From Pseudodesulfovibrio portus (GTDB lineage: Bacteria > Desulfobacterota > Desulfovibrionia > Desulfovibrionales > Desulfovibrionaceae), in contig NZ_AP026708.1 of the NCBI RefSeq assembly GCF_026000375.1, forward strand, positions 2,234,501-2,298,500: a stretch of 64,000 bases of DNA, in the 5' to 3' direction. The stretch's first letter is position 1. The number at the start of each line of letters is the position of its first letter. Made by a program: the position numbers and the translations under genes. Under the pieces are notes generated by a model that was given only the letters and a program-made list of their open reading frames with translations, was not told the origin of the DNA and searched no databases. Positions 32,763 through 52,504 of the stretch are shown here, one piece after another.

Positions 32763-35168
32763 TTACTTCCTGCAGTCGCCCGGCACGGCCAGCCCGGTCA
32801 GTTCGGCCAGCCGGTCGTCCACGCGGCGGTAAAGGCTGCCGAGCGGGTATTTGCCGCTTGCGCCGCGTTTGCCGCACTTGAGGCCTGTGAGGATGAGCAT
32901 TGCCTCCTCGATGGTCTTGACCGGGAAGATGTGGAACTTGCCAGCGTCCACGGCCTGGATGATCTCGTCCTTGAGCATCAGGTTGACCACGTTGTCCGCT
33001 GGCAGGATCACGCCCTGTTTGCCGGTCAGCTTGCGGCGGCGGCAGACCTCGAAGAATCCCTCGATCTTGCGGTTGACCCCGCCCACGGCCATGACCGATC
33101 CGCTTTGCGAGACCGCGCCGGTGAAGGCGTAGGACAGGTTGACGGGCGCGCCGGACAGGGCCGAGAGCAGGGAGGCCAGCTCCGCGCCGGACGCGGAGTC
33201 GCCCTCGATGCCCGCGTAGGACTGCTCGAAGCAGAGCGACCCGGTGAGCACGATGGGCTTGTCCTGGGCGAACAGGCGCACCAGGTAGGACTTGATGATC
33301 ATCATGCCCTTGGTGTGGATGGGGCCGCCCAGCTGGGCCTCGCGCTCCAGGTCGAGGATGCCGCCGTGGCCCACGCCCACGGTGCAGGATATCTGGTGCG
33401 GAAGGCCGAATTCGTAGTTGCCGAACAGGGTCACGGACAGCCCGTTGCACAACCCGGTGGCCTGGCCGTCGGTGGCCACCTTGATCACCTGGCGGTCGTA
33501 GTCGGCCATGAACTCCTCTTCGTACAGGTTGGCCCTGTAGTCCTTGGCGAACACGGCCTCGTTCAGGGTGGCCAGGTCCACTTTTTTCTTCCCGGCCATG
33601 CGGGCCAGGGCCGTGGCCTCGATCATGCGCTCGCGGATGAGCGGGATGAACAGGGAGAGGCGCTTCTGGTCTTCGGCCAGCCGGGAGGAGAAGTCCACCA
33701 GCCCGGCCATGGCTTCGCGGGTCAGCGGCATGACGTCGGACTCGCGGGCGGTCTGGCCGATGATGGATATGAAATTGCGGATGTTGGCGGCGTTGCGCGT
33801 AGCCGCGTGCTGCAAGTGCGCCTTGAGCTTGAAGAACTTGGCGAACCGGTCGTCGTTGTAGAGCAGGATCTCGTAGTTCTCGTCCGTGCCGATGAGCACC
33901 ACCTTGATGTCCAGCGGGATGGGCTCGGGCTGGATGGTGCGGGCGCGGACCTGTTCCGGGTCCACCGGGTCCTCGATGCGCGACTGGCCGGTGCGCAGGG
34001 CGCGGAGCAGCCCCTCCCAGGAGCTGGGGTGGGTGAGCAGGTCCTCCATGTTGACGATGAGGAAACCGCCGTTGGCGTTGTGCAGGGAGCCCGCCTTGAT
34101 CAGGGTGAAGTCCGTGTACAGCGCACCCATCTCGGCCTCGCGCTCGATGGAGCCGAGCAGGTTGAAGGGCGTGGGGTGGTCTTCGGTCACCACGGGCGCG
34201 CCCCTGGTCTTGCCGTGATCCACGAACAGGTTGACCTCGAATCGGGAAAAGAAGTCCTCTCCGGTCTGCATGCCGTCGGGCATGAGTCCGGCCAGGGAGG
34301 TGTCGCGCGGCATGAACTGGTCCACGTTCTCCACCACCTCGTCCGCCAGTGCCGTGAAGTATTCCGCCAGCCGTTTTATGTCGCCGAACTTGTCCTTGAC
34401 CGGGGCGAAACAGTCCTCCATGACCACCTGGGCCATTTCCTTGTGCAGGAGGGACTCGGAGTCGCGCATGTCCATTTCGTTCTGGTTGATCTGGCGCAGG
34501 ATGGAGCTGACCCCGGCCAGCAGCTCCTCGCCCTTGGCCTTGAGCTTCTTGCGCACGGCGGGCTTGAGCTTGTCGAAGTCCTTGTCCGAGACCACCTCGC
34601 CGTCCACGATGGGCGACAGGGTGAGCACGCCGTCGTCGTCCAGGCTCAGGGAGAAGCTTTCCTTCTCCGCCGAGGCGTCCATCCTGGAGAACAGGTCCTC
34701 GCGCTTGGCGTTGAATTTCTTGACCATGGCCTCGTGCTTCTGCTGGAAGGAGTCCTTCTCGAAGCGGGCGGGGATTTCCTGGCGGATGTGGGTCATGGCT
34801 TTCTGCTGGGCGGTCTTGAACTTGCGGCCCCGGCCTGCGGCCATGGAGACCGCGATGGGCCGGTCGTTGTCTTCGAAGTTGTAGAGATAGACCCAGTCGC
34901 AGGGCGGCTTGGCCTTGGCCGCTGCGGGCGTGAGGAACGATTTGACGAAATAGGTGCGGCCCATGTTCGGCTCGCCCGCCACGAAGATGTTGTGCTCGTT
35001 GCCCTTGATCTTGAGCGCCAGGGACAGGGCCTGGATGGCGCGGGGCTGGAGCTTGGCGTAGACGTTCTTGGCCGGAACGTCCGCGCTGGTGGCGAAGGGT
35101 ATGCTTTTCGGGTCGAGGGTGGCCCGCAGCTTGGAGCCGTGGAGTCCTTTGGGCGTGGTCTGGTTCAT
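32763..35168 (-). CDS. Lon-family (S16) AAA protease, LonB/YcbZ type
   Basis: An 801-residue ATP-dependent protease-like protein. The C-terminal S16 domain has the Ser-Lys dyad: S658 in GDSASGAEL and K701 in VGGVNRK, 43 residues apart as in classical Lon. The N-terminal nucleotide site reads FVAGEPNMGRTYF, with Arg (R71) where the P-loop Lys normally is. A long coiled insertion (residues 110-260) precedes the second part of the AAA module (NGGFLIVNMEDLL). The layout matches the AAA_32/Lon_C family rather than housekeeping Lon. It is cytoplasmic; targets are unknown. Confidence 0.92.
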   Translation of the reverse strand: MNQTTPKGLHGSKLRATLDPKSIPFATSADVPAKNVYAKLQPRAIQALSLALKIKGNEHNIFVAGEPNMGRTYFVKSFLTPAAAKAKPPCDWVYLYNFEDNDRPIAVSMAAGRGRKFKTAQQKAMTHIRQEIPARFEKDSFQQKHEAMVKKFNAKREDLFSRMDASAEKESFSLSLDDDGVLTLSPIVDGEVVSDKDFDKLKPAVRKKLKAKGEELLAGVSSILRQINQNEMDMRDSESLLHKEMAQVVMEDCFAPVKDKFGDIKRLAEYFTALADEVVENVDQFMPRDTSLAGLMPDGMQTGEDFFSRFEVNLFVDHGKTRGAPVVTEDHPTPFNLLGSIEREAEMGALYTDFTLIKAGSLHNANGGFLIVNMEDLLTHPSSWEGLLRALRTGQSRIEDPVDPEQVRARTIQPEPIPLDIKVVLIGTDENYEILLYNDDRFAKFFKLKAHLQHAATRNAANIRNFISIIGQTARESDVMPLTREAMAGLVDFSSRLAEDQKRLSLFIPLIRERMIEATALARMAGKKKVDLATLNEAVFAKDYRANLYEEEFMADYDRQVIKVATDGQATGLCNGLSVTLFGNYEFGLPHQISCTVGVGHGGILDLEREAQLGGPIHTKGMMIIKSYLVRLFAQDKPIVLTGSLCFEQSYAGIEGDSASGAELASLLSALSGAPVNLSYAFTGAVSQSGSVMAVGGVNRKIEGFFEVCRRRKLTGKQGVILPADNVVNLMLKDEIIQAVDAGKFHIFPVKTIEEAMLILTGLKCGKRGASGKYPLGSLYRRVDDRLAELTGLAVPGDCRK

Positions 35169-35251: not shown

Positions 35252-35279
35252 AAAAGGGGCGGCCCGCATGGACCGCCCC
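35252..35279 (-). terminator. Terminator of the seven-gene surface operon
   Basis: On the minus strand GGGGCGGTCC and GGGCCGCCCC form a 10-bp stem with a four-base loop followed by TTTTC. It lies 23 bases past the stop at 35302. Confidence 0.85.
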
Positions 35280-35301: not shown

Positions 35302-36504
35302 CTACAGCCCAGTTCCCCGGAACAGTGCCTTTTGCAGGCCCAGGCTCCACTGCCCCTTGGGGAAGCCGTGCCGGACCGCGAAGTCGTCCATGGCCTTTTG
35401 GGTCATGGGCCCGAAGGAGCCATCGACGGCCCCGGTGTAGTGGCCGAGCTGCGCGAGCCGGGTCTGGATGAGGGTCGTGTCGTCCGGGAACAGGGGGTTG
35501 AGGAAGGACAGGCCGCGTCCGACGGGACCCTGTCCTCCCGCTGCGCCGGGAGTTGCGGGAGCCTGGCGGGGCGCCACGGCCTGCGGGGCCGGGGGCGCGG
35601 TCGAGGCCTGCGGAGCCGGAGCCTGGTAATTGGCCCGGGATTGTCCGGCTGGCGACCCCTCGGGCTTGGACGAGAAGCTGGCCGCCTGGATGCGCTTCCG
35701 GGCCGCTTCCGGGATGCCAGCGCCGGGGGTGTAGAAATAGTTGCAGTAGAACCGCTGGCGCAGGCTGGACGGGTTGAGCTGGGCCACGAACATGTGCACG
35801 CGCCACCCGTCGTAGTCGAGGTAGGTCTGCTTGTCCTTGGCGATGTTGTCCAGGGTCCGCCAGGCCTTTTCCCGGGGGCTGACCACGACCTCGAACAGGG
35901 CGTCCGCAGGCAGCCGGTTCATGACGAAGGTCATGACCAGGTAGGCGCGCTGGCCCCGGTCCGGGTCGGCTGAGGTGTATGCGTGTTCACGGGCGAAGGT
36001 GTACAGGGTCGGCCAGTCGCCGCGCCTGGACTCTGGGAGCCCGTCCTTGAACTCCTCCATGGGGACCATGTACGTCTCCAGGCTCAGGTTCGAGGGCGAG
36101 CTCATGATCGCCAGGGCCTGGGTGACGTTGATCCGCTTCCCGTTGACCGCGTACTGCGTGGAGTACTGCATGGACACGAGGCGGTTGTACCCGTCGTAGA
36201 GGTGGATGGAGCCGCCCACTTCCGCGTTGTACCTGTTGCCAGGGTTGGAGTTGCTGTAGAACAGGGGGGAGATGCGGCTTCTGGTGAAGGCGTTGTATTC
36301 CCCCTCGCTGCCCGCCGCCAGGTAGTCCCGGACGCCCGGAGCGAAGGAGATGAAGGACAGGCCGCGCTGGCCCGTGAGCTCGGCGGCCAGGGTGTAGGAG
36401 ACGTCCATGGCGTCCGGGGGCCACTTCTTGGCCTCGCGGGCCGATACGGGCGTTGCCGTGGCCAGGATCAGCAGGAGGATGAGGATCAGTCTGAGATGTC
36501 GCAT
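35302..36504 (-). CDS. Secreted peptidoglycan-binding protein (paralog 3 of 3)
   Basis: A 400-residue exported protein (signal peptide, cleavage near PVSA; GAGG before the ATG). Residues 30-265 are a domain of unknown type shared with the proteins at 37245 and 39213; the common anchor is a DWPTLYTFA...DGWRVHMFVAQL pattern. A Pro/Ala/Gln-rich linker follows. The last 75 residues are a PG_binding_1 domain (FLNPLFPDDTTLIQTRLAQL, then FGPMTQKAMDDFAV). It is the last gene of the operon. It probably attaches to the cell wall from the periplasm; enzyme activity is not evident. Confidence 0.85.
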   Translation of the reverse strand: MRHLRLILILLLILATATPVSAREAKKWPPDAMDVSYTLAAELTGQRGLSFISFAPGVRDYLAAGSEGEYNAFTRSRISPLFYSNSNPGNRYNAEVGGSIHLYDGYNRLVSMQYSTQYAVNGKRINVTQALAIMSSPSNLSLETYMVPMEEFKDGLPESRRGDWPTLYTFAREHAYTSADPDRGQRAYLVMTFVMNRLPADALFEVVVSPREKAWRTLDNIAKDKQTYLDYDGWRVHMFVAQLNPSSLRQRFYCNYFYTPGAGIPEAARKRIQAASFSSKPEGSPAGQSRANYQAPAPQASTAPPAPQAVAPRQAPATPGAAGGQGPVGRGLSFLNPLFPDDTTLIQTRLAQLGHYTGAVDGSFGPMTQKAMDDFAVRHGFPKGQWSLGLQKALFRGTGL

Positions 36505-36515
36505 GGAGGGCCTCG

Positions 36516-37187
36516 CTACATGAGGAAGTTGGAGTCGTGGGGTTGGGCCGGTCCGCCTCCGCCCACGTTCTCCCAGCCGGGTGAATTGGGGTTCATGCTG
36601 CCGGGTGAATCGCTGGGGGTGCCGTCCGGTCCGGACCCGGTCATGTTCGAGCCGTATGCGCCCTGCGCCGCCTTGGTGTACGGGTCGCGAAATTCCGTTC
36701 GTGCTTTCTCCAGGGTGTCCAGGACGTCCTTGGTGATGTCGACGGTGGTCGTGATGCCGTCATAGGCCTCCTTGGCCACCTGAAGGGGAGGCGGGAGGAT
36801 GGGCGGGAAGGCGAGCTTCTTCTGGAGGTAATCCCCCACCTTTCCCTGGATGTACTTGCCGAGGGTCTCCAACGCCTTTTCTTTCCAGGTCTGCTTGGCC
36901 TTGGCGGTCGCCTTGTCCTGGTGGGGCTTCTTTTTGGGCGGGGCACCGTAGAATTCGCCGTACTCAGGATCGATGACCGGCATGCCTTCGATGCCGGGGG
37001 TGTAGGGGATGGAAGGGCCGCTTGAGCTGTATGAGCCGCCGCCGGTTCCATCGCTGCCGCCACCGCCGCCACCGCCGCCACCGCCGCCACCGCCGCAGCC
37101 GCCGCAGCCGCCTGAGCCGCCGGAGGTTGCGAAAACGCTGGCGGGCATGAGCAGGCAGGCGGCGAAGATGAGGATACAGAGCTTCAT
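36516..37187 (-). CDS. Glycine-start secreted protein C
   Basis: A 223-residue exported protein; AGGAG precedes the ATG and the signal peptide ends near VFAT. The mature N-terminus is an extreme Gly tract with two Cys pairs (GGCGGCGGGG, about 13 consecutive Gly) coded by a GGC/GGT-type triplet run. The remainder has a Lys-rich helix, a Pro stretch (FPPILPPPLQ) and a Gly/Pro/Ser-rich tail. It is the partner in position to the downstream peptidoglycan-binding paralog 3, from which it is 11 bases away. No domain is recognised. Confidence 0.8.
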   Translation of the reverse strand: MKLCILIFAACLLMPASVFATSGGSGGCGGCGGGGGGGGGGGGGSDGTGGGSYSSSGPSIPYTPGIEGMPVIDPEYGEFYGAPPKKKPHQDKATAKAKQTWKEKALETLGKYIQGKVGDYLQKKLAFPPILPPPLQVAKEAYDGITTTVDITKDVLDTLEKARTEFRDPYTKAAQGAYGSNMTGSGPDGTPSDSPGSMNPNSPGWENVGGGGPAQPHDSNFLM

Positions 37188-37244
37188 GGTGTCTCCTGTC
37201 GGAAAACCCCTGTGCCGGGCAGTCCCGATACGGGGGGTGGAATG

Positions 37245-38654
37245 TTACAGTCCGGAGCCTTTGAACAGGGTCTTTTGTAGGCCCAGGCTCCATTGTCCCT
37301 TGGGGAAGCCGTATTTGACCGCGAAGTTGTCCAGCGCTTTCTTGGTGAAGGGGCCGAAGGTGCGGTCGATGGGGCCTCCGTAGTGGCCGAGTTCCTTGAG
37401 CCGCGTCTGGATGATGGCCACGTCGTCCGGGAAGACCGGGTTCAGGAAGGCCATGCCGCGCTCGAGCGGGCCCTGGGCGGGCTGCGTCTGGGCCGGTGTA
37501 GCCGCCGGGGCCTGGGCCATGCCCGGGGGCGGTGGCGCCAGGGCGGGTGCCTGCTGCGGAGCGGGAGCCGTGGCCGCAGGCGGCGGCGGTGCCAGTGCCG
37601 GGGCTAGGGTTGCTGCGGGCGGCGGTGGTGCCAGGGCGGGAGCCGGAGTCGGGGCGGGCGGAGGCGGCGCCAATGCGGGCGCCGGTGCGGCTTGAGGTTG
37701 AGGAGCCGGTGCCATGGCCGGTGCGGGTGCGGCCTGAGGGGCCGGGGCAGCCGACTGGACCGGGCCTGTGGCCGGGACCGCCTGCGGGACGGACTGGGCC
37801 GGGTCGGGCAGCTCGGAGGTCAGGATCATGGTCGAGCTGTCGTAGGACGCCACTTTTCTGGTGCTGCCGCCGTTTTCGGCGAAACTGCCGGGCGAGTACA
37901 TGACGTTGACGTAGAACTTCCTGCCCGAGCCGAGTTCCAGCCGTCCGGCGATGACGGCCACCTGCCAGCCGTCAAAATTGAGGCCGGCGGTCTTGGCGAT
38001 GGAGTTGTCCGTTTGCCTCTCGTTCCGCTTCCTGGAGACCACGGGATAGAACTTGGCGTCCGAGGCCAGCCGGTCCAGGCAGAAGATGAAGCCGTAGTGC
38101 TGGGCGCGCTCGGTCCCCTGTCCGGGCCGGACCGCGTTGTCCAGGGCGAAGTTGAACAGGGTGGTCCAATCCTCGTATATGGCTTGTCCCGCTGCCGTGA
38201 CCTTTTCCGTGGGCACGAAGAACAGGGCCACGCGCGGGGTCTCGGGTTCCACGACCTTCATCCCGGCCCTGGTGACCGTGAACTGGTTGTTGCCCATGGT
38301 GTAGTCCAGGTAGACCCTGGTGTGGGAGGCGCGCCGCCAGGCATCCGTGAACTGGATGCGGGTGTACAGCAATCGGCTGTTGTCACCGTTCGAGCCCACG
38401 TCGTAGCTCTGCAGGTTGACCACGCCGGGGCCGAAGCCCTGGTAGGTGAAGGTGTCGGCCTGCAGGGCCTGTCTGGCCTGGGGCGAGAGCTGGGCCAGCT
38501 GGTTGGCGCCGTTGTTCATGATCTCGTCGGCGGCCACGGCAACGGCGTACATGGCGTCCGGAGGCGCTTCCTCGGTCTTCTGGTTGAGGGCGACGGCGGC
38601 TGCCGCCGTGAGGACCAATGCGAACAATGCGAGTATGGCGTATGTTTTCTTCAT
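37245..38654 (-). CDS. Secreted peptidoglycan-binding protein (paralog 2 of 3)
   Basis: A 469-residue exported protein (signal or anchor at residues 5-22, AGGGG before the ATG). The N-terminal domain (residues 30-280) is homologous to those at 35302 and 39213: IYEDWTTLFNFALDNA, FIFCLDRLASDAKFYPVVS, LNFDGWQVAVIAGRL. Then comes a Pro/Ala linker of about 120 residues with repeated PALAPPPPA units, which would span the periplasm or wall. The C-terminal PG_binding_1 domain begins FLNPVFPDDVAIIQTRLKEL. The linker DNA is internally repetitive, so its length may vary between strains. Confidence 0.85.
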   Translation of the reverse strand: MKKTYAILALFALVLTAAAAVALNQKTEEAPPDAMYAVAVAADEIMNNGANQLAQLSPQARQALQADTFTYQGFGPGVVNLQSYDVGSNGDNSRLLYTRIQFTDAWRRASHTRVYLDYTMGNNQFTVTRAGMKVVEPETPRVALFFVPTEKVTAAGQAIYEDWTTLFNFALDNAVRPGQGTERAQHYGFIFCLDRLASDAKFYPVVSRKRNERQTDNSIAKTAGLNFDGWQVAVIAGRLELGSGRKFYVNVMYSPGSFAENGGSTRKVASYDSSTMILTSELPDPAQSVPQAVPATGPVQSAAPAPQAAPAPAMAPAPQPQAAPAPALAPPPPAPTPAPALAPPPPAATLAPALAPPPPAATAPAPQQAPALAPPPPGMAQAPAATPAQTQPAQGPLERGMAFLNPVFPDDVAIIQTRLKELGHYGGPIDRTFGPFTKKALDNFAVKYGFPKGQWSLGLQKTLFKGSGL

Positions 38655-38663
38655 GTCGGTCCC

Positions 38664-39188
38664 CTATTTGCCGAAGGCGCTCTTGACCCGGCTGTACGCG
38701 CCGGAGGCCGCGTCCTTGACCGTTTCATAGGCGCTGCGCGATTTGTTCCCGATCCAGCTCAACACGGACCAGGCCTTTTGCTGCTTGTTCTTGTCGATGC
38801 TGAACGCGTAGGCCTTGCCCACGAAGTGGACGGCCTTGAACCAGCCGTATCCCGGGATGAAGAAGCAGGCCACGGTTCCTCCGTAGTCCAGGACCGTCAG
38901 CATACCGATGCATTCGTCGCTTTCCCAGAAGCTCTCGTCGCTCTTGTCCGGGATGGCGGCCGGGTCCCAGGAGAACATCGGATCGCCGCCGAATTGGGTG
39001 GACGGCACGTTGGGGGTTTCGTCGTCGAACACGCGGTTGTTCTCGGGTTTGTCGGTTTCTCCGCGTGAGTTGTTGCCGCCGCCTCCATAGCCCAGGGCCG
39101 TGGCGGGCAGCAGGAGGCAGAAGCTCAAAAAGGCCACCGCCATGATACCGGGTATCCGTTTGAGGGATGTGGTGTCTGTATGATGCAT
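38664..39188 (-). CDS. Glycine-start secreted protein B
   Basis: A 174-residue exported protein; AGGGAG precedes the ATG and the signal peptide ends near ALG. The mature protein begins YGGGGNNSRGETDKPE, similar in style to the mature starts of proteins A and C. A hydrophobic central segment (LDYGGTVACFFIPGYGWF) contains one of two Cys, and the C-terminus is an amphipathic helix. It lies 9 bases before the peptidoglycan-binding paralog 2. The function is unknown. Confidence 0.8.
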   Translation of the reverse strand: MHHTDTTSLKRIPGIMAVAFLSFCLLLPATALGYGGGGNNSRGETDKPENNRVFDDETPNVPSTQFGGDPMFSWDPAAIPDKSDESFWESDECIGMLTVLDYGGTVACFFIPGYGWFKAVHFVGKAYAFSIDKNKQQKAWSVLSWIGNKSRSAYETVKDAASGAYSRVKSAFGK

Positions 39189-39212
39189 GTCTCTCTCCCT
39201 GTTTTCTCCGGC

Positions 39213-40436
39213 CTATTGTCCGGTGCCCTTGAAGAGCTCCTTCTGGACGCCGACGTTCCACTGGTCCTTGGGGAAGCCGTGCCGTTTGTTGAAGGCATTC
39301 AGCGCCTTCTTGGTCAGCGGGCCGTAGTTCCTGTCGATCTTGCCGGTGTACAACCCCAGCGCCTTGAGGCGGACCTGGATGACTTCCACGTCTTCCGGGA
39401 AGATGGGGTTGAGGTAGACGTCGCCGCGCGCCAGGGGGCCTTCCCCGGTGGCGTCGGGTTGGGCCGCGCCCTGCTCCATGGTCTGCTCGACCACTTCGCG
39501 TTGCGCGGCGGCGGCCAGGGAAGCCGCGTCCTGCTTGACGTTGGAATACGCGCCCACGACCACCTCGGGCAGATAGCCGCCGGGGTTCTGCTGGTAGGCC
39601 ACGCCCACGTGGAACTTGTTCCGCGAGGAGCCCGGAGCGAACTTGCCGCCGGCGATGAGGATGCGCCAGCCCGTGTCGTTGATGGAGATGGCCTCGGCCA
39701 GCTTGTCGCCCGCGCCGTTGGGGCGGCTGGTCACGGTCATGGTCAGGGAGGAATCCTGGAACAGGCGGTCCTTGCAGAAGGACATGATGTAGTATTCGCT
39801 CTTGAACCCGGACTTGGAGCCGCCCTCGCCGTAGGTCATGGGCTCGGCGTTCTCGATGGCGAACAGGTAGTAGTCCGTGTAGGTGACCAGCGAGGATGCC
39901 GCTTCCTTGAGTTTGGACTGGGGAACGAAGAACGTTTCCACGCGGGGGAAGTCCGGCGGGATGGGCGTCATGACGGACTTGGTGATGTTCACGCCGTCCT
40001 TGTCCATGATGTACTGGGTGGCGAAGTAGACGCCGGTCCGCCGGTTGATGATGTCCTTGAACAGGATGGCCCCTTCGAGCACGACCAGGGCCGATCCCGG
40101 TTCGATGACGTTGACCGTGTAGCCGGTCACGGCCACATCCTGGACGTCGAAACCGGCGTAGTCGAAGCTCAGTTCGCCCACGGCGTGCCGGCCGTCGGGG
40201 TCGAGGGTGACGTTGGCCACGGAGATGCGGCCGCCGCGCAGCCGTTCGACGAGGGCAGCCGTGACCAGCTCGATGTCGCTGGGGGCCTTGGCCGGGGGCA
40301 CGGGCACCGCCACGGGGGCCTGCACGTCCATGGGAGGCGGCGGCTCGACCGGGGCGGATTGCAGGTCGGGCATGTTGCACGCGGTCATGAGGAGGCCGCA
40401 GAAAATCAATGCTGTGAGCAGGATATGTTTGCGCAT
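39213..40436 (-). CDS. Peptidoglycan-binding lipoprotein (paralog 1 of 3)
   Basis: A 407-residue lipoprotein. I start it at ATG 40436 (MRKHILLTALIFCGLLMTAC), where a lipobox LMTAC ends the signal; the longer frame to 40787 runs antisense-like through the previous gene. The N-terminal domain is homologous to those of the other two paralogs (FFVPQSKLKEA, YYIMSFCKDRLFQDSSLTM, GWRILIAGGKFAPGS). The C-terminal PG_binding_1 domain starts YLNPIFPEDVEVIQVRLKAL. With a lipid anchor at one end and wall binding at the other, it could tie the outer membrane to peptidoglycan. Confidence 0.85.
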   Translation of the reverse strand: MRKHILLTALIFCGLLMTACNMPDLQSAPVEPPPPMDVQAPVAVPVPPAKAPSDIELVTAALVERLRGGRISVANVTLDPDGRHAVGELSFDYAGFDVQDVAVTGYTVNVIEPGSALVVLEGAILFKDIINRRTGVYFATQYIMDKDGVNITKSVMTPIPPDFPRVETFFVPQSKLKEAASSLVTYTDYYLFAIENAEPMTYGEGGSKSGFKSEYYIMSFCKDRLFQDSSLTMTVTSRPNGAGDKLAEAISINDTGWRILIAGGKFAPGSSRNKFHVGVAYQQNPGGYLPEVVVGAYSNVKQDAASLAAAAQREVVEQTMEQGAAQPDATGEGPLARGDVYLNPIFPEDVEVIQVRLKALGLYTGKIDRNYGPLTKKALNAFNKRHGFPKDQWNVGVQKELFKGTGQ

Positions 40437-40473
40437 GGGTCGGAAACCTCGTTGAGTCTGAGTGCGGAAAGGG

Positions 40474-41196
40474 CTACTGGTCTGCGCCGGGGGCATAGGT
40501 CGCGGACGGGACGTAGCGCGGCATCTGGGCGAGGTTGGGAGCGCCCACGGCCTGGGCCGCTGCGGCGATGGCCTCGTTGGGAGTGGTGGCCGCAGGCGGT
40601 TGGACTCCGGCCTCGGCCAGTCTTGATCCGGCGGCGGCGACCGCCCTTTCCACCCTGGCGCGGATGGCTGCCTGCTCCGGGTTGCGCTCGGGATCGCTGC
40701 CGTTCCGGGCGCGCTCGAAGGCGTTGGGCCCGTTGCTCGGCGTGAAGCCGCCGATCCGGGTTTCGGCCGGTGCGCCGACGCCTTCAACGGGATCGTTGCC
40801 GCCGGTGACCAGCGGGACGCCCTTGACCACGGTCAGCCCGCCGTGATCTCGGGGGTGCGCACGGTCGAGGACCTCAAGGGTCTTGCCCATGCTTTCCAGG
40901 TGGCGGGACATGTCCGCGCCGCCGGTCTCGGGGAAGGTTTGGCCGATGGCGGCCATGCCGTTTCGGGAAATGGTGGAGCCGCCGAAGGAGTCGACGTTGG
41001 TGGGCTCGGTCGACGGCGAGGCGCTGCCGAAGGACACGGAAAGATCTTTTTGGGTGTCGCCTTCCTCCACGCCTCCCGTGGCCCCGGAGGTCCCTTCGCT
41101 GCCGCCGCCGTAGGCGAAGGCCATGGCGGCGGTGAGCAGCAGGCTCAAGATGATCAGGCCTGCGGAGAGCGCGGGCGATTTGCCGATTCGATGCAT
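40474..41196 (-). CDS. Glycine-start secreted protein A
   Basis: A 240-residue exported protein; AAGGAG precedes the ATG and the signal peptide ends near AFA. The mature start YGGGSEGTSGATGG is low-complexity. The rest is polar, rich in Gly, Ala, Pro and Glu, with an Ala-rich helix (AAIRARVERAVAAAGSRLAE). No Cys and no known domain. It sits between the beta-propeller gene and the peptidoglycan-binding lipoprotein, with gaps of 24 and 37 bases. Confidence 0.78.
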   Translation of the reverse strand: MHRIGKSPALSAGLIILSLLLTAAMAFAYGGGSEGTSGATGGVEEGDTQKDLSVSFGSASPSTEPTNVDSFGGSTISRNGMAAIGQTFPETGGADMSRHLESMGKTLEVLDRAHPRDHGGLTVVKGVPLVTGGNDPVEGVGAPAETRIGGFTPSNGPNAFERARNGSDPERNPEQAAIRARVERAVAAAGSRLAEAGVQPPAATTPNEAIAAAAQAVGAPNLAQMPRYVPSATYAPGADQ

Positions 41197-41220
41197 GAAA
41201 TACTCCTTGGTATGGGCGCG

Positions 41221-42855
41221 TCACCGCCCGTCTGTTGCCATGGATTCGCCTTTTGCCGCTTCCGGGTCGGCGAGCTCCATGGTCATTTGTTCGGCGCTGT
41301 TGACGGGAACGAACTCGGGCACCATTGCCGCCAGTTCGGGGTGGCTGAAACGGAACAGGCGCAGGCTCGGGCTGGACTGTCCGTCGTCATTGATGTGGGT
41401 GAGGTAGACCTCTGTGTAGGGCGAGTTGCCCTTGGCCGCGAAGGCCAGCCAGCGGGAGTTGGGCGACCAGGCGTGCCACGAGTTCATGAGCGGCGTGTTG
41501 GCCGCCAGCACGCGGGGTTCGCCGCCCTGCGCGGGCACGATGACCAGCCTGCTGTCCGGCTGGAGGACCAGGCCGGTCCTGCTCTGGGTGAAGACGAGCC
41601 ATTTGCCGTCGGGAGAGTACCGGGGAAAGAAGTTGCTCAACCCGTTGTTCGAGGCCCCGGTGATGGGCGCGGCGACACCGCCCCGACCTTCATTGAAGTC
41701 CACGGCGTAGAGCGAGAACTGGACCGGATATTTTTCGTTGACGTCGAGGATGTTCTGGGTCGGGTCCTCTTTCCGGAGCACGCCGTCCTCGATGGCCTTG
41801 ACCAGGCTCGGCTGGACCATGGCCCGGGCAAAGGCCACGCGGGCTCCGTCCGGGGAGAAGGCGGGGTTGGTCTGGATGAGGTCGACGTCGCTTGCGCCGG
41901 GCAGGGGAGAGACCGTGTTCGACCGGCGGTCGTAATAGGCGATCTGCCCGGTGGCCGGGAAGAACATCTGGGAGAAATAGAGGTCGTCGAGCATGACGAA
42001 GGCCGAGGATTCGCCCACCGTGGAGGCCGCGAACCGCCCGTCCGGGGAGAAGCATGTGAACAGCCCCATGGAATACTTGGACGGGCCGGGCGCGTCGTAG
42101 GAGTTCCAGGAGATGACGTCCTCGTCCGCCACGCGGGTCTTCTCCTTGACGTCCACCAGGACGTATCCGCCCTTGTCCCCCTTGTAGTCCATGTCCATGC
42201 CGTAGGCCTTGCCGTCAAGGGAATAGGCGTGGCAGTTGAAACACAGGGGCTGGTCCTGGAGCACCACGCGCGGCTTGCCGAAGGAAGCCGGGTCGCCCAC
42301 GGCCATCTGGCTGTCGTAGGGGTTGTCCTTGGCCTTGCGGAAGGGAAGGCGCTTGCGCAGGAAGGCGATCTTCGCGCCCACCGGGTCCGGGGAGATGGAG
42401 AAGGAGGTCCGGCCCCTGCTGACCAGTCGGCCGTCCTCGTCGATGCCTGCGATGCGGACCGTGACCGGCTGGTTCCCGGCCTTGTCCCTGATGGCCGCCC
42501 ACAGCTCTTCGCCGGGGGCCCAGGCGTCCTTGTCCACGATGCCCTGGCACACGGTGCTGCTGCCCGTGGTCATGGTCACCAGCCAGAGCGAGGCCGTGTT
42601 GTCCCGCCAGCGGACGATGGGCGAGGCCGCGTCCGCCGGGACCATGGCCCCTGCGGCCGGTTCCAGGACGTCCATGGCAGCCGGGTTTTCACCCGGCTGG
42701 AGGGCGTCGAGCCATCCGGAGAGGGTCATCCGGTCCGGCGGCGTCAGCCCGGGCGACCGGAAAATGGTGTAGGCGTCGGCCGGAGCACCGGTCCACAGGA
42801 AGAGCGCCAGAATCAGAAGCGGAAGTTGCCACGGGGGAATAGATTTCTTTGTCAT
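41221..42855 (-). CDS. Exported TolB-like beta-propeller protein with a CxxCH motif
   Basis: A 544-residue protein at the head of the operon. The ATG at 42855 follows GGCGAG; the in-frame upstream ATG at 42909 lies inside the promoter. The signal peptide ends near ADA. PD40/TolB-type blades are marked by FSPDGRFAAS, FSPDGARVAFA, YSPDGKWLVFT and WSPNSRWLAFA. A single c-type heme motif CFNCH (C205, C208, H209) stands before MDMDYKGDKGGY. The combination is seen in periplasmic WD40-like proteins of other bacteria, but the redox role is unproven. Confidence 0.88.
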   Translation of the reverse strand: MTKKSIPPWQLPLLILALFLWTGAPADAYTIFRSPGLTPPDRMTLSGWLDALQPGENPAAMDVLEPAAGAMVPADAASPIVRWRDNTASLWLVTMTTGSSTVCQGIVDKDAWAPGEELWAAIRDKAGNQPVTVRIAGIDEDGRLVSRGRTSFSISPDPVGAKIAFLRKRLPFRKAKDNPYDSQMAVGDPASFGKPRVVLQDQPLCFNCHAYSLDGKAYGMDMDYKGDKGGYVLVDVKEKTRVADEDVISWNSYDAPGPSKYSMGLFTCFSPDGRFAASTVGESSAFVMLDDLYFSQMFFPATGQIAYYDRRSNTVSPLPGASDVDLIQTNPAFSPDGARVAFARAMVQPSLVKAIEDGVLRKEDPTQNILDVNEKYPVQFSLYAVDFNEGRGGVAAPITGASNNGLSNFFPRYSPDGKWLVFTQSRTGLVLQPDSRLVIVPAQGGEPRVLAANTPLMNSWHAWSPNSRWLAFAAKGNSPYTEVYLTHINDDGQSSPSLRLFRFSHPELAAMVPEFVPVNSAEQMTMELADPEAAKGESMATDGR

Positions 42856-43086: not shown

Positions 43087-44064
43087 GTGCTCACAAGATG
43101 TATTGTCTCGGTTTCCAAAAAAAATCCTGCCATTTTGCCGTTGTCCCTGGCCCTGGCCGCCGCCCTTCCGTATGCAGTGGAATTCGCCGACACCGGCAGC
43201 CTGCACATCTCCTACCAGATAGCCTTCGGCTTTTTCTGGCTGGTCGTCTCCCCCGTGCTGATCTGGTACGGCTACAGGTCCCTTGAATGGTTTTTGGAGT
43301 ACCTGAAGGATTTCATCGACCCGGATGCGCACGCGGCCCTGAGCGAAAAGACCTTTTCGGATATATTTTCCAGCAGGCACCTCTATTTTTCCTTTCCCCT
43401 CTTATTCGTGTTCACGTTTTTTGCGAAGCTGTACGCCGGGCACGCCGGTCTCGCGCCGGTGCTCCAGTGGGCGGTGGTCGTGCTGTTCGCCCTGTCCGGG
43501 TTCATGGCCGGGATCGGATTCTGGGGCATCTGGGTGATGGAGAAGCTGATACGGAGGATGTGCGGCCTCGACCTGAAGCTCGACCCGTTCTGCATCGACG
43601 GGTACGGCGGCCTGCTCTATGTGGGCCGCTTTCTGGTCATCGGTTCGGCCCTGTATTTTTCGGGCTCGATGTACATCCCGTTCGCGACCGAAGTCTTTGA
43701 TATGTTTTCCAAGGAAAACAGCGTGATAATCGCCTACATCAGCGTCTTTGCCTACATCGCGTTCGGGCTCGGCATGTATTTCAGGTCCATTCTCTACGTG
43801 CACGACAAGCTGCTTGCGGAAAAGATGCGCATCGACGACGATTCCCAGGAAGTCCTGTACCGGCTGCAGGAAGGGGTCATGAACGGGAACGACACCCCGT
43901 CCCTGGAACAGGTTGTCAGGCCGTATGTGTATTACGTGGTGCACCATTCCAGGATCAACGGCATGCGGACATTCCCGTATGACACCAAGTCGCTGATCGA
44001 GATAATCGCCACGGTGATGATTCCGGTCCTGATATTCACTTTCGAGCAACTGTTCAGGGGGTAG
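43087..44064 (+). CDS. Multi-pass membrane protein of unknown function
   Basis: A 325-residue inner-membrane protein starting with GTG at 43087 (AAGGGG upstream). About six hydrophobic segments are seen, e.g. IAFGFFWLVVSPVLIWYGY, FPLLFVFTFFAKLY, WAVVVLFALSGFMAGIGFWG, VIIAYISVFAYIAFGLGMYF. Cytoplasmic or loop parts include DPFCIDGYGGLLYVGR. No family is recognised. The stop is 5 bases before the flavoprotein gene, so the two are surely co-transcribed. Confidence 0.82.
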   Translation: MLTRCIVSVSKKNPAILPLSLALAAALPYAVEFADTGSLHISYQIAFGFFWLVVSPVLIWYGYRSLEWFLEYLKDFIDPDAHAALSEKTFSDIFSSRHLYFSFPLLFVFTFFAKLYAGHAGLAPVLQWAVVVLFALSGFMAGIGFWGIWVMEKLIRRMCGLDLKLDPFCIDGYGGLLYVGRFLVIGSALYFSGSMYIPFATEVFDMFSKENSVIIAYISVFAYIAFGLGMYFRSILYVHDKLLAEKMRIDDDSQEVLYRLQEGVMNGNDTPSLEQVVRPYVYYVVHHSRINGMRTFPYDTKSLIEIIATVMIPVLIFTFEQLFRG

Positions 44065-44069
44065 GTCGC

Positions 44070-45230
44070 ATGGGATATGATTTCGAGGTGGCGGTCATCG
44101 GAGGCGGCCCGGCCGGAAGCTCCGCCGCCAGGCGGCTCGCCCGTGCCGGTGTTTCGGTCGTGCTCTTCGAGAAGCAGGCCATGCCCCGCAGGAAGGTCTG
44201 CGGCGGGGCCCTGTCCGAGCAGGCCATGAGCTACCTGGACTTCGAGCTGCCGCAGGAAGTGGTGGATTGGGAGTGTTACGGCGCGCGCGTGACCTACGGC
44301 GACAAGACGCTGGTGGAGCGCCTCGACGAGCGGATCGCCGTACTCGTCACCCGGTCCAGGTTCGACAAGCTGCTCGTGGATATGGCCCTGGAGGCCGGGG
44401 CGCAAGTGGTGTGGGAGGCGGTCGCCTCGCTGGATGAGGGAGAGCGGGGAGTTGCCGTGAAAACGGCTTCCGGCGCATCGTTCACCGTCCGCCGGTGCAT
44501 CATCTGCGCGGGGGCGAACTCCCGGTTCATCCCGAAGGTCCGGCCCCGCGACGGCGTTTACGGGGAAGGCATCTGCATGGAGGGGGAGGTGGATCGCCTG
44601 TCCCCGGACCCGTTCGCCCACCTCGAGGGATTGATCGACATCTATTTCGGCGTGGCCGGCTACGGCTACGGGTGGGTCTTCCATCACGGCACCTATTATT
44701 CGGTCGGCGTGGGCGGCTTGCGGGCCAAGTTCCCGAATCCCGCCAAGGCGCTGGAGGAGTTCACGGCCCGGATCGGCCTGGCGGGCAGGCTGCGGGACGT
44801 GAAGGGCCACCCCATTCCGCGCGGCGGCCTGGACAGGCGGCTGGGCAAGGGCAGCCTGCTCCTGGCCGGGGACTCCGCCGGGTTCGTGGACCCGTTCTAC
44901 GGTGAGGGGTTGGCCTATGCCATCCGTTCCGGCCAGCTCGCCGCCGAGGCGATAGTCGGGAATTCCCGCACCGACATGATGCACGAAGACTACCGGCGCA
45001 CCACCAAGGCGGAGTTCAGCGCCAATCTCGAATATTCCCTGCTGTTTTCCAAGGTCATGTACACCCTGCCCAAGCTGTTCCTGAACACCCTGGTTTCGGA
45101 TGAGAAGGCCCTGCGGCGGTATCTCTATGTCCCGCTGAACAAGTTGTCGTACAAAGAGTACCTGACGTGGCTCGTGCCGAGGCTGCCCGTGTTCTGGGCC
45201 AGGCGGATTTTCGAGCTGATGCTGCCCTGA
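44070..45230 (+). CDS. Geranylgeranyl-reductase-family FAD oxidoreductase
   Basis: A 386-residue flavoprotein. The N-terminal FAD-binding GGGPAGSSAARRLAR is followed by Glu in VVLFEKQAMPRRKVCGG, and the second FAD contact is LLLAGDSAGFVDPFYGEGL. Together with the YGYGWVFHH segment these define the geranylgeranyl reductase/isoprenoid-saturating family of the FixC/PHBH fold. It may reduce isoprenoid double bonds (lipid or quinone tails) or dehalogenate/hydroxylate a lipid; the substrate is unknown. It is paired with the membrane protein upstream. Confidence 0.9.
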   Translation: MGYDFEVAVIGGGPAGSSAARRLARAGVSVVLFEKQAMPRRKVCGGALSEQAMSYLDFELPQEVVDWECYGARVTYGDKTLVERLDERIAVLVTRSRFDKLLVDMALEAGAQVVWEAVASLDEGERGVAVKTASGASFTVRRCIICAGANSRFIPKVRPRDGVYGEGICMEGEVDRLSPDPFAHLEGLIDIYFGVAGYGYGWVFHHGTYYSVGVGGLRAKFPNPAKALEEFTARIGLAGRLRDVKGHPIPRGGLDRRLGKGSLLLAGDSAGFVDPFYGEGLAYAIRSGQLAAEAIVGNSRTDMMHEDYRRTTKAEFSANLEYSLLFSKVMYTLPKLFLNTLVSDEKALRRYLYVPLNKLSYKEYLTWLVPRLPVFWARRIFELMLP

Positions 45231-51373: not shown

Positions 51374-52504
51374 CTACGCGGGCCGGACGATGGAGTGGAT
51401 GGTGCGGGTCAGTTCGGCTTCGCCCTTGGCGGCGTAGGTCTCGTACAGGGACATGATGGTCGCCTGGGAGAAGACGTAGTTGCGGAACTGGTTGAAGGGC
51501 TTTTTCCTGAGATCGTTTTCGCTGATCTTGTAGTCGCGGACGGCCACCTTTTCCATGACCGGGATGAGCCACTGGGCCGCGGGCACGGTGAGCACCCAGT
51601 CATGGTCGCCGAGGTGGGTGACGAATCCTTCCTGGCGGCGCGGCATGGGCAGGGTCTTGCCGTCGGCGGCGAGCAGGCCGTGCTTGACCGGGTCCACGCC
51701 CGCGATGACGGAGGCGGCGGTCAGCCAGCCGACCACCTGGGCCTCGTCCTTTTCGGTGCGCGGGTGGTTGTGGGCGCAGGCCTGGGCCACGCAGACCTCG
51801 GCGGGCAGGCCGCGCACGATGGATTCGGCCACGCCCAGCGGGTGGTGTTCGCCGGTGCCGCCGAGCTTCATCTCGCCGCGCGATTCGCCGTGCTCATCCC
51901 ACTGGAAGACCCAGGGCTTGTGCAGGTCGTGCAGCAGCTGGGCGGCGATGACCACGTCGCGGTCGAGCATGTAGTCGTAGACCTGGCGGTAGCCGTCGTA
52001 GAGGGCCAGGGACACGCGCGTGTTGAGATCGGTGTGGGTGGCCAGGCCGCCGGGATAGGAGTGATGGGACTGGTAGCCGCTGCCCGGCGCGGACCGGAAG
52101 GGCTGCGGGGCTTTGGCCGCGTTGCCGACGGGCGGCATGAAGTCCGCTTCCGTGACGTCCTTGAGCAGCCCCTTGGCGGTCAGTTCCCTGTATATGGCCT
52201 TTTTTTCGCCCTTGCCCATGGATCGGGCCAGGGTGGGGGCGGGGTTGTCGAGGATGGCCTCGACCCTGGTCCGGATGGCGGGGTTGCGGATTTCGGCGGC
52301 GGTCAGGCGGATGGAGCGCCAGGCTGCGGATACCGGGGCCGAGGCGTCGGCCATGGCCACGTGGTCCAGTTCCAGACACTCGGCGAGGGTGCGCCGGGCA
52401 GGCGCGGAAAAGGCGGGGGCGGGCATGGACGCGACCACGGCGGTGGCCCCCGCGATGGCCCCGAGCTTCAGGAAGTCGCGGCGTTTCAGTCGTTCAGCAG
52501 GCAT
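51374..52504 (-). CDS. Tat-exported HD-type protein
   Basis: A 376-residue protein; AAGGAGA precedes the ATG. A classical twin-arginine signal (LKRRDFLKLGAIAGATAVVA, cleavage near APAFSA) is followed by a helical domain with a His/Asp pattern typical of HD hydrolases: YPGGLATHTDLN, LLHDLHKPW, GTGEHHPLGVAE and CAHNHPRTEKDE. HD proteins are normally cytoplasmic phosphohydrolases; export as a folded metalloprotein would be unusual. The substrate is unknown. It stands alone, divergent from topA. Confidence 0.85.
   Translation of the reverse strand: MPAERLKRRDFLKLGAIAGATAVVASMPAPAFSAPARRTLAECLELDHVAMADASAPVSAAWRSIRLTAAEIRNPAIRTRVEAILDNPAPTLARSMGKGEKKAIYRELTAKGLLKDVTEADFMPPVGNAAKAPQPFRSAPGSGYQSHHSYPGGLATHTDLNTRVSLALYDGYRQVYDYMLDRDVVIAAQLLHDLHKPWVFQWDEHGESRGEMKLGGTGEHHPLGVAESIVRGLPAEVCVAQACAHNHPRTEKDEAQVVGWLTAASVIAGVDPVKHGLLAADGKTLPMPRRQEGFVTHLGDHDWVLTVPAAQWLIPVMEKVAVRDYKISENDLRKKPFNQFRNYVFSQATIMSLYETYAAKGEAELTRTIHSIVRPA

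Follow-up and report, generated by a model that had tools for sequence, protein, structure and literature searches.

This analysis concerns a seven-gene unit (the cassette) on the minus strand of a 64,000-nucleotide stretch of the Pseudodesulfovibrio portus genome (NCBI RefSeq assembly GCF_026000375.1, contig NZ_AP026708.1, positions 2,234,501 to 2,298,500), hereafter the window, to which all positions refer. The cassette runs from 42855 to 35302 and encodes, in 5′ to 3′ order, a β-propeller protein (PROP) and then three pairs, each composed of a small exported glycine-start protein and a large protein with a peptidoglycan (PG)-binding domain, namely Gly-A and PGB1, Gly-B and PGB2, and Gly-C and PGB3. 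The repeating unit is the pair. The N-terminal region common to the three large proteins (NTD) defines a protein family that passes no Pfam or NCBIfam cut-off and whose genes usually follow immediately on that of another exported protein. The reading favoured here, with a probability of about 0.5, is that each pair would comprise an exported protein and its dedicated, cognate receptor or anchor in the cell envelope; the pairs appear most likely to serve in structure or in sensing at the cell wall. If the partners do bind, they constitute a natural set of parallel receptor/ligand pairs, in many cases fixed to the wall, and a new envelope element in anaerobes.

Recurrence of the pair in related genomes

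All seven open reading frames lie on the minus strand in the order given by the initial annotation, with intergenic gaps of 24, 37, 24, 9, 57 and 11 bases in the 5′ to 3′ direction. Searches with the three large proteins match 28 of 247 genomes of the family, some of them through the PG-binding part only; a profile of 23 NTDs matches 26 of 297 genomes of the class, and a broader profile matches 5 of 395 genomes of the phylum (the window's own genome is included in these counts). The gene neighbourhoods described below cover most of these matches. Two of the relatives carry names, namely a Desulfovibrionaceae metagenome-assembled genome and a Pseudodesulfovibrio metagenome-assembled genome.

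By a strict automatic rule, a Gly-start exported gene lies directly upstream, on the same strand, of 29 of 44 NTD genes, compared with 4 of 774 other genes of the same loci. This count omits L007, which lies on the same contig as L029, and the later loci L069–L098; it rests on gene calls from our own codon-usage script, which are wrong for some starts and for the whole loci L065, L066, L079 and L085. Five further NTD genes qualify by eye, one each in L029, L040, L046, L047 and L060. The initial annotation had made its proposal depend on the pairs being conserved together in relatives, and the neighbourhoods bear this out.

The arrangement seen most often in the genus is PROP followed by two pairs (L029, L030, L032, L033, L034). 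PROP with one pair is found in L046, L047, L038, L040, L059, L062 and L063 (on the opposite strand in L059), and a pair without PROP in the stretch read in L031, L037, L041, L042, L043, L048, L067, L068 and L096. A further family of the phylum has the two-gene pair as well (L096, L097).

The composition of individual loci varies further. Genome G104 holds the operon (L030) and, elsewhere on the chromosome, a separate lone pair of type A (L031; see below for types). The solitary NTD genes of L045 and L064 are preceded by another gene, presumably of PEBP type. At L060 and L061, NTD genes are interleaved with an aminotransferase-like gene (identified by eye) and with small exported non-Gly proteins.

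Predicted architecture of the encoded proteins

The three large proteins are paralogues across both the NTD and the C-terminal PG_binding_1 domain. PGB1 (P0003, 407 residues; 39213–40436, minus strand, as for all cassette genes) is a putative lipoprotein, with the lipobox LMTAC read from the sequence, and has a predicted NTF2-like, a probable immunoglobulin (Ig)-like and a PG_binding_1 domain. PGB2 (P0005, 469 residues; 37245–38654) has a signal peptide, an NTD of separate lineage, a long Pro/Ala linker and PG_binding_1; PGB3 (P0007, 400 residues; 35302–36504) has a signal peptide, an NTD, a linker and PG_binding_1. The curated cut-off of PG_binding_1 (PF01471), 23 bits, is passed by PGB1 with 35.3 bits (residues 348–391; 39264–39395), by PGB2 with 27.0 (residues 410–444; 37323–37427) and by PGB3 with 29.1 (residues 342–380; 35365–35481). 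When the N-terminal pieces alone are compared by BLASTP, they match one another at 26–29% identity (E 4e-13 to 3e-21), in keeping with the homology first proposed, and the FC-x-DRL motif is indeed present in two of the three (PGB1 and PGB2), its counterpart in PGB3 being FVMNRL. The C-termini are 58–69% identical by BLASTP and the C-terminal domains 56–68% in global alignment; the earlier description of these domains as nearly identical therefore does not hold.

The initial annotation had named a known family as the outcome that would count against it. In the cassette, the only Pfam cut-offs passed are those of PG_binding_1 and, on PROP, PD40; nothing in NCBIfam exceeds its cut-off on the cassette proteins, and 23 NTDs taken from the window and its relatives are all without a Pfam match above cut-off. 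In PHROGs the NTD has no match of its own, the matches of the large proteins falling in the C-terminal domain. A sequence search of the PDB with the NTD gives no meaningful match; matches to designed WRAP proteins (E 2e-6 to 2e-5) are judged spurious because no single stretch passes. A Foldseek search of the whole NTD against viral models gives none at E 0.001 or better.

An AlphaFold2 model of the PGB3 NTD consists of two halves (predicted local distance difference test, pLDDT, 85.7; predicted template modelling score, pTM, 0.81). The first (36091–36441; predicted model m028d2ecf26e2), which modelled alone reaches pLDDT 86.4 and pTM 0.81, is predicted to have an NTF2/cystatin-like fold. No Foldseek match reaches E 0.001, the best having E 0.0086; among the 50 matches shown, 11 are named NTF2 or NTF2-like, and we take many of the others to be of NTF2 fold as well. 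In structural comparison by VIA, the top nine matches have Z 8.0–8.7 and root-mean-square deviations (rmsd) of 3.2–4.0 over 97–108 of 117 residues; the list is headed by TraM (Z 8.7, rmsd 4.0, 108 residues), and IcmL-like and VirB8-type periplasmic domains are among the ties. A fold in common with NTF2-like proteins says nothing of function. The second half (35650–36102) is probably Ig-like in the predicted model: residues 115–262 match immunoglobulin constant domains in VIA with Z about 6 and rmsd mostly 3.0–3.7 over some 94 residues (best match Z 6.3, rmsd 3.2, 94 residues), a middling Z that can reflect a common arrangement.

Among 50 NTD proteins, which include two duplicates (L007 = L029), 31 have a C-terminal PG-binding domain as detected by its own profile, and 22 a lipobox according to a simple pattern that misses some. 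In two of the lipobox-bearing proteins (L067, L068), PG_binding_1 is inserted inside the NTD (25.2 and 28.6 bits, cut-off 23). Judged by these motifs, anchoring of NTD proteins appears to be common, not universal, and the wall anchor proposed in the initial annotation is plausible to the same extent.

The small proteins are Gly-A (P0002, 240 residues; 40474–41196), with the mature start YGGG; Gly-B (P0004, 174 residues; 38664–39188), with the mature start YGGGG and a hydrophobic stretch, FIPGYGW; and Gly-C (P0006, 223 residues; 36516–37187), with the mature start TSGGSGG, a GIEGMPV motif and the C-terminus NFLM. All are predicted to be exported, with signal peptides of the Sec type as read from the sequence. 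Compared with one another by BLAST, they match at E up to 1 only in one stretch of 15 residues (E about 0.5) in the signal peptides, in keeping with the initial annotation. Of 33 small proteins, 24 have a mature sequence that starts Tyr-Gly, two of these being recognised by eye and the other 22 by pattern. Type A is marked by the conserved hydrophobic core FVPGVGW, whose profile finds 11 places in 297 genomes of the order; 10 of them adjoin an NTD gene in the loci read; the eleventh (G219) lies, by coordinates, about 0.4 kb from an NTD match. Gly-A is a relative of this family, 28–34% identical to its relatives over residues about 48–172; its core has diverged and is not found by the profile. 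The similarity of Gly-B to the FVPGVGW core lies within the range of shuffled decoys (E about 0.2), and a shared core is rejected. Gly-C is 58% identical to its L029 orthologue.

PROP (P0001, 544 residues; 41221–42855) is a predicted exported PD40/TolB-like β-propeller (Pfam PD40, 59.3 bits) with one c-heme motif, CFNCH, at residues 205–209 (42229–42243), of which C205, C208 and H209 are invariant in an alignment of 11 sequences. CxxCH is present in 26 of 26 PROP sequences and SWH in 25, the remaining sequence being truncated where its contig ends. PROP occurs in 23 of 247 genomes of the family, and 16 of the 24 copies read lie near an NTD. It is separable from the pairs: several genomes keep it without them, and L069 has PROP alone at the cassette site. 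At L070 (8260–12329), the gene for a relative of PROP adjoins a gene for a fatty acid cis/trans isomerase (CTI, 865 bits), with no NTD nearby. In the Tol-Pal system, a TolB propeller is laid out together with the peptidoglycan-binding lipoprotein Pal, whose domain is OmpA-like. The cassette resembles it in encoding a TolB-like propeller with a peptidoglycan-binding lipoprotein, but it differs in having PG_binding_1, Gly proteins and a c-heme motif; PROP scores 26.8 bits against a cut-off of 343.15 in the TolB equivalog model, and no TolB_N domain is found in the genome. That PROP replaces TolB was considered and rejected: TolB_N is found, weakly, in three of 36 genus genomes, and it is also absent from most genomes without PROP.

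Kinship of the pairs and loss of a partner

The small proteins were sorted into types by BLAST, and a maximum-likelihood tree was built on 40 NTDs (leaving out L007, L008, L035_6, L036_11 and L060_5). The ten type labels need nine changes on this tree, which is the minimum; shuffled labels need 19.7 on average, and none of 200 shuffles is as low. Seven of the 40 rows are unlabelled and uncounted, and four of the ten labels are single rows. Type A alone needs two changes, because L062 is long-branched.

The initial annotation had taken the three pairs to be products of pair duplication, which is unsupported in the case of pair 2. None of 14 other NTDs compared exceeds 30% identity to that of PGB2, whereas its PG-binding domain is 61–77% identical to theirs. 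Approximately unbiased (AU) tests, which additionally left out L062_8, L067_6, L068_6 and the hand-copied L060_x, reject its placement in the PGB1 clade (p 0.003) and in the clade of the operon's own PGB3 (p 0.0003); a position beside the wider nine-member C clade is not rejected (p 0.36). The head of PGB2 thus appears to be old and distinct, its anchor being of resident stock; pair 2 is not a recent duplicate of pair 1 or 3 and would have come in from elsewhere or descend from an old lineage. The C-terminal domains show no sign of gene conversion in recent times, their synonymous divergence within the window being 0.62–0.83 over 68 codons. One operon can thus gather unlike pairs yet keep one kind of anchor.

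In both of the sister loci L035 and L036, Gly-C is missing and the adjoining PGB3 is without its entire NTF2-like half, while the leader, the Ig-like half and the PG-binding domain are retained; between the two, the PG-binding domains are 96% and the remaining NTDs 72% identical. Since this half is lost where Gly-C is missing, the comparison suggests that the partner is required by the NTF2-like half in particular. A single deletion running from Gly-C into PGB3 is less likely as the cause, because the remaining leader resembles PGB3 leaders more than those of Gly-C: against three PGB3 leaders and three Gly-C leaders, respectively, the leader of the L035 orphan has z of 7.5, 0.9 and 4.3 and of 1.8, 0.4 and 2.4, and that of the L036 orphan z of 4.2, 3.3 and 5.0 and of 0.9, −0.5 and −0.3. 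The leaders are short and hydrophobic, which makes this comparison weak evidence.

Readings of the pair and its genomic setting

If the pairs are indeed cognate, the large partner would act as receptor or anchor, gripping the small partner with its NTF2-like domain; the Ig-like half would serve as a spacer, and the C-terminal PG-binding domain and/or the lipid would fix the complex at the wall. The small partner would be a Sec-exported protein held to the wall by the anchor that belongs to it; its mature N-terminus would be flexible, in many cases beginning Tyr-Gly, and its body particular to the type. The TolB-like propeller with its c-heme motif would be an optional partner, often leading the operon. 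What the data show is the order of the genes, the recurrence of the pair, the correspondence of types with clades, the domain composition (with folds from prediction), purifying selection in relatives and the optional presence in the genus; we infer that the partners bind physically, that the NTF2-like half is the binding half, that they are located at the envelope and that PROP attaches heme.

Several findings weigh against such a system of cognate, wall-anchored pairs. Ten of the 44 NTD genes have no recognised adjoining Gly partner: the truncated orphans of L035 and L036, the second tandem copies of L037 and L048, the solitary genes of L045 and L064, three in L060/L061 (at a contig end or beside a non-Gly neighbour), and that of L039, where the upstream reading frame has no Gly start. 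The solitary NTDs of L045 and L064 retain the NTF2-like half. The sister genomes of L035 and L036 probably owe the loss of that half to a single event, and, as Gly-C precedes PGB3, one longer deletion could have taken both. Neither a PG-binding domain nor a lipobox is found in 12 of the 50 NTD proteins, some of which are cut or have a lipobox missed by the pattern. The ratio of non-synonymous to synonymous substitution rates (dN/dS) between the window and its nearest relative, L029, is higher than that among relatives, at 0.32–0.40, with 0.70 for Gly-A and 0.22 for lon. Finally, physical linkage alone would likewise make types follow clades, so that their agreement is support, not proof. The matching of each small protein to its large neighbour, proposed initially, fits both this agreement and the loss of the NTF2-like half in L035 and L036; linkage could also produce the agreement.

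Taken to its end, this last argument says that the genes are neighbours without direct interaction, exported proteins co-inherited and agreeing in type through linkage only. The same tree pattern is predicted, and PROP is kept without pairs in several genomes; but the pair turns up in settings that are otherwise unrelated, its other neighbours changing, and absence of the partner accompanies the loss of one specific domain, which makes mere linkage quite improbable. An accessory role in the flagellum, with proteins that bind peptidoglycan around the motor, would account for the setting in the genus. There, the cassette lies just downstream of the motA–fliQ genes and is co-directional with them, at 136–193 bases (L029, L030, L032–L036) or about 0.5 kb (L046, L047) by our own gene calls; in nine of ten such loci it is followed by a gene for a Lon-like protease (the exception is L034). 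Yet in 18 genus genomes without a cassette at this place, fliQ is followed directly by lon at 120–222 bases in 11, as rechecked by tblastn because some gene calls are wrong; of the remaining seven, six have no lon in the stretch and one has it on the opposite strand. Moreover, no flagellar neighbour is recognised at L031, L037, L038, L041–L043, L048, L062 and L096, and in the window two opposite-strand genes part the cassette from fliQ. Because fliQ and lon directly adjoin in these 11 genomes and L069 keeps PROP alone, the cassette is an optional element that does not belong to the flagellar core, and a flagellar function is very unlikely.

Two further explanations, both unlikely, start from the proteins themselves. 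Under antagonism, the small protein would be a toxin acting on membranes (in type A through its hydrophobic FVPGVGW core), against which the large protein, periplasmic and of NTF2 fold, would give immunity. Polymorphic toxin systems with immunity proteins of the NTF2-like kind are described in PMC3924330. The small gene precedes the large one, the matched types are diverse, the pairs are scattered, and tandem NTD copies occur (L037, L048). However, no toxin domain exceeds its Pfam cut-off in the three small proteins of the window and 15 from relatives (Pesticin at E 0.026 in L037 and Effector_1 at E 0.35 in L046 remain below it), and PADLOC gives weak matches only, to one of ten proteins scanned (L046). 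Where computable in four comparisons of relatives, dN/dS is 0.04–0.26 for the cassette genes and 0.05–0.26 for the small ones (Gly-C in L030–L032 is too diverged, and dS there is high, up to 1.9), which points to purifying selection in relatives. An orphan immunity gene should, furthermore, retain its binding half, and in L035 and L036 it is the NTF2-like half that is lost. Since purifying selection prevails in relatives and no toxin domain is found above cut-off, toxin and immunity protein are less likely than a cognate receptor or anchor pair. Assembly of a surface fibre is likewise doubtful; in this case the fibre would be built of Gly proteins resembling pilin or curlin, with the NTF2-like protein as an assembly platform in the wall, comparable to VirB8. 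The VIA matches to TraM (3wz3, Z 8.7), an IcmL-like protein (5cnl, Z 8.5) and CagV (6iqt, Z 8.5) favour it, but other NTF2-like proteins tie with these VirB8-type domains. The Gly-rich mature start recalls the N-terminal signal of curlin. Kinship with the TrbC/VirB2 pilins was considered on the basis of a weak match in one of eight core sequences (E 0.028) and rejected; that match, in L008, scores 13.4 bits against a cut-off of 27.9. No pore gene is recognised in the cassette by Pfam. Curli themselves consist of curlin with CsgG. The small proteins share with them a Tyr/Gly-rich mature N-terminus, but no curlin family is found by Pfam on those of the window, and the genome has no match to CsgG, while 4 of 14 control genomes do.

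For the preferred cognate receptor or anchor pairs, partial parallels exist. The NTF2-like superfamily, including periplasmic VirB8-type and NTF2-fold immunity proteins, shares the predicted fold of the large proteins' N-terminal half, but the NTD is fused to a probable Ig-like half and often to a PG-binding domain, and matches no Pfam family above cut-off. The Cdz glycine-zipper bacteriocins of Caulobacter are also Gly-rich envelope proteins encoded with a partner; systems of this type (PMC5380434) have type I secretion genes beside proteins of 60–151 residues with a G[G/A/S] leader. The small proteins of the cassette differ in having 174, 223 and 240 residues and Sec-type signal peptides, and no type I secretion genes are recognised among the seven genes by Pfam or NCBIfam. 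The component folds are thus known, and their combination as paired envelope units is absent from the family libraries searched. A limited literature search found no description of such units, which is weak evidence, as most subscription journals lie outside its coverage. A more far-reaching proposal, to which little confidence is attached, is that the pairs are undescribed minimal two-gene envelope systems, present in the Desulfovibrio group and in a small number of families elsewhere in the phylum; a wall-fixed NTF2-like/Ig-like protein might receive and display, or assemble, its own Tyr/Gly-started partner, with several non-interchangeable pairs working in parallel within one operon and the heme propeller as a redox-dependent gate.

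For single transcription of the cassette from one promoter to one terminator, as initially proposed, there are candidate signals at both ends. A candidate σ70-like site, TTGCCA-17-TATATT (42909–42881, minus strand; consensus match only, 10/12), precedes PROP, the first gene; counting both strands, the region has five such sites where 0.8 would be expected. A terminator-like hairpin of 10 bp with a T-rich tail lies just 3′ of PGB3 (35256–35279, minus strand; consensus match only), but terminator-like matches in the region do not exceed those in shuffled sequence (9 against 7.0, standard deviation 2.8). Farther off, a reading frame of 376 residues without a Pfam match at E 1e-10 is found at 51377–52504 (minus strand). 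The two plus-strand genes between fliQ and the cassette (43087–45230) encode a protein of 325 residues without a Pfam match at E 1e-4 and a flavin adenine dinucleotide-dependent oxidoreductase; both are absent from this place in L029, L030 and L032–L036. Directly downstream of the cassette (32763–35168, minus strand) lies its usual neighbour in the genus, a gene for a LonB/LonC-like protease.

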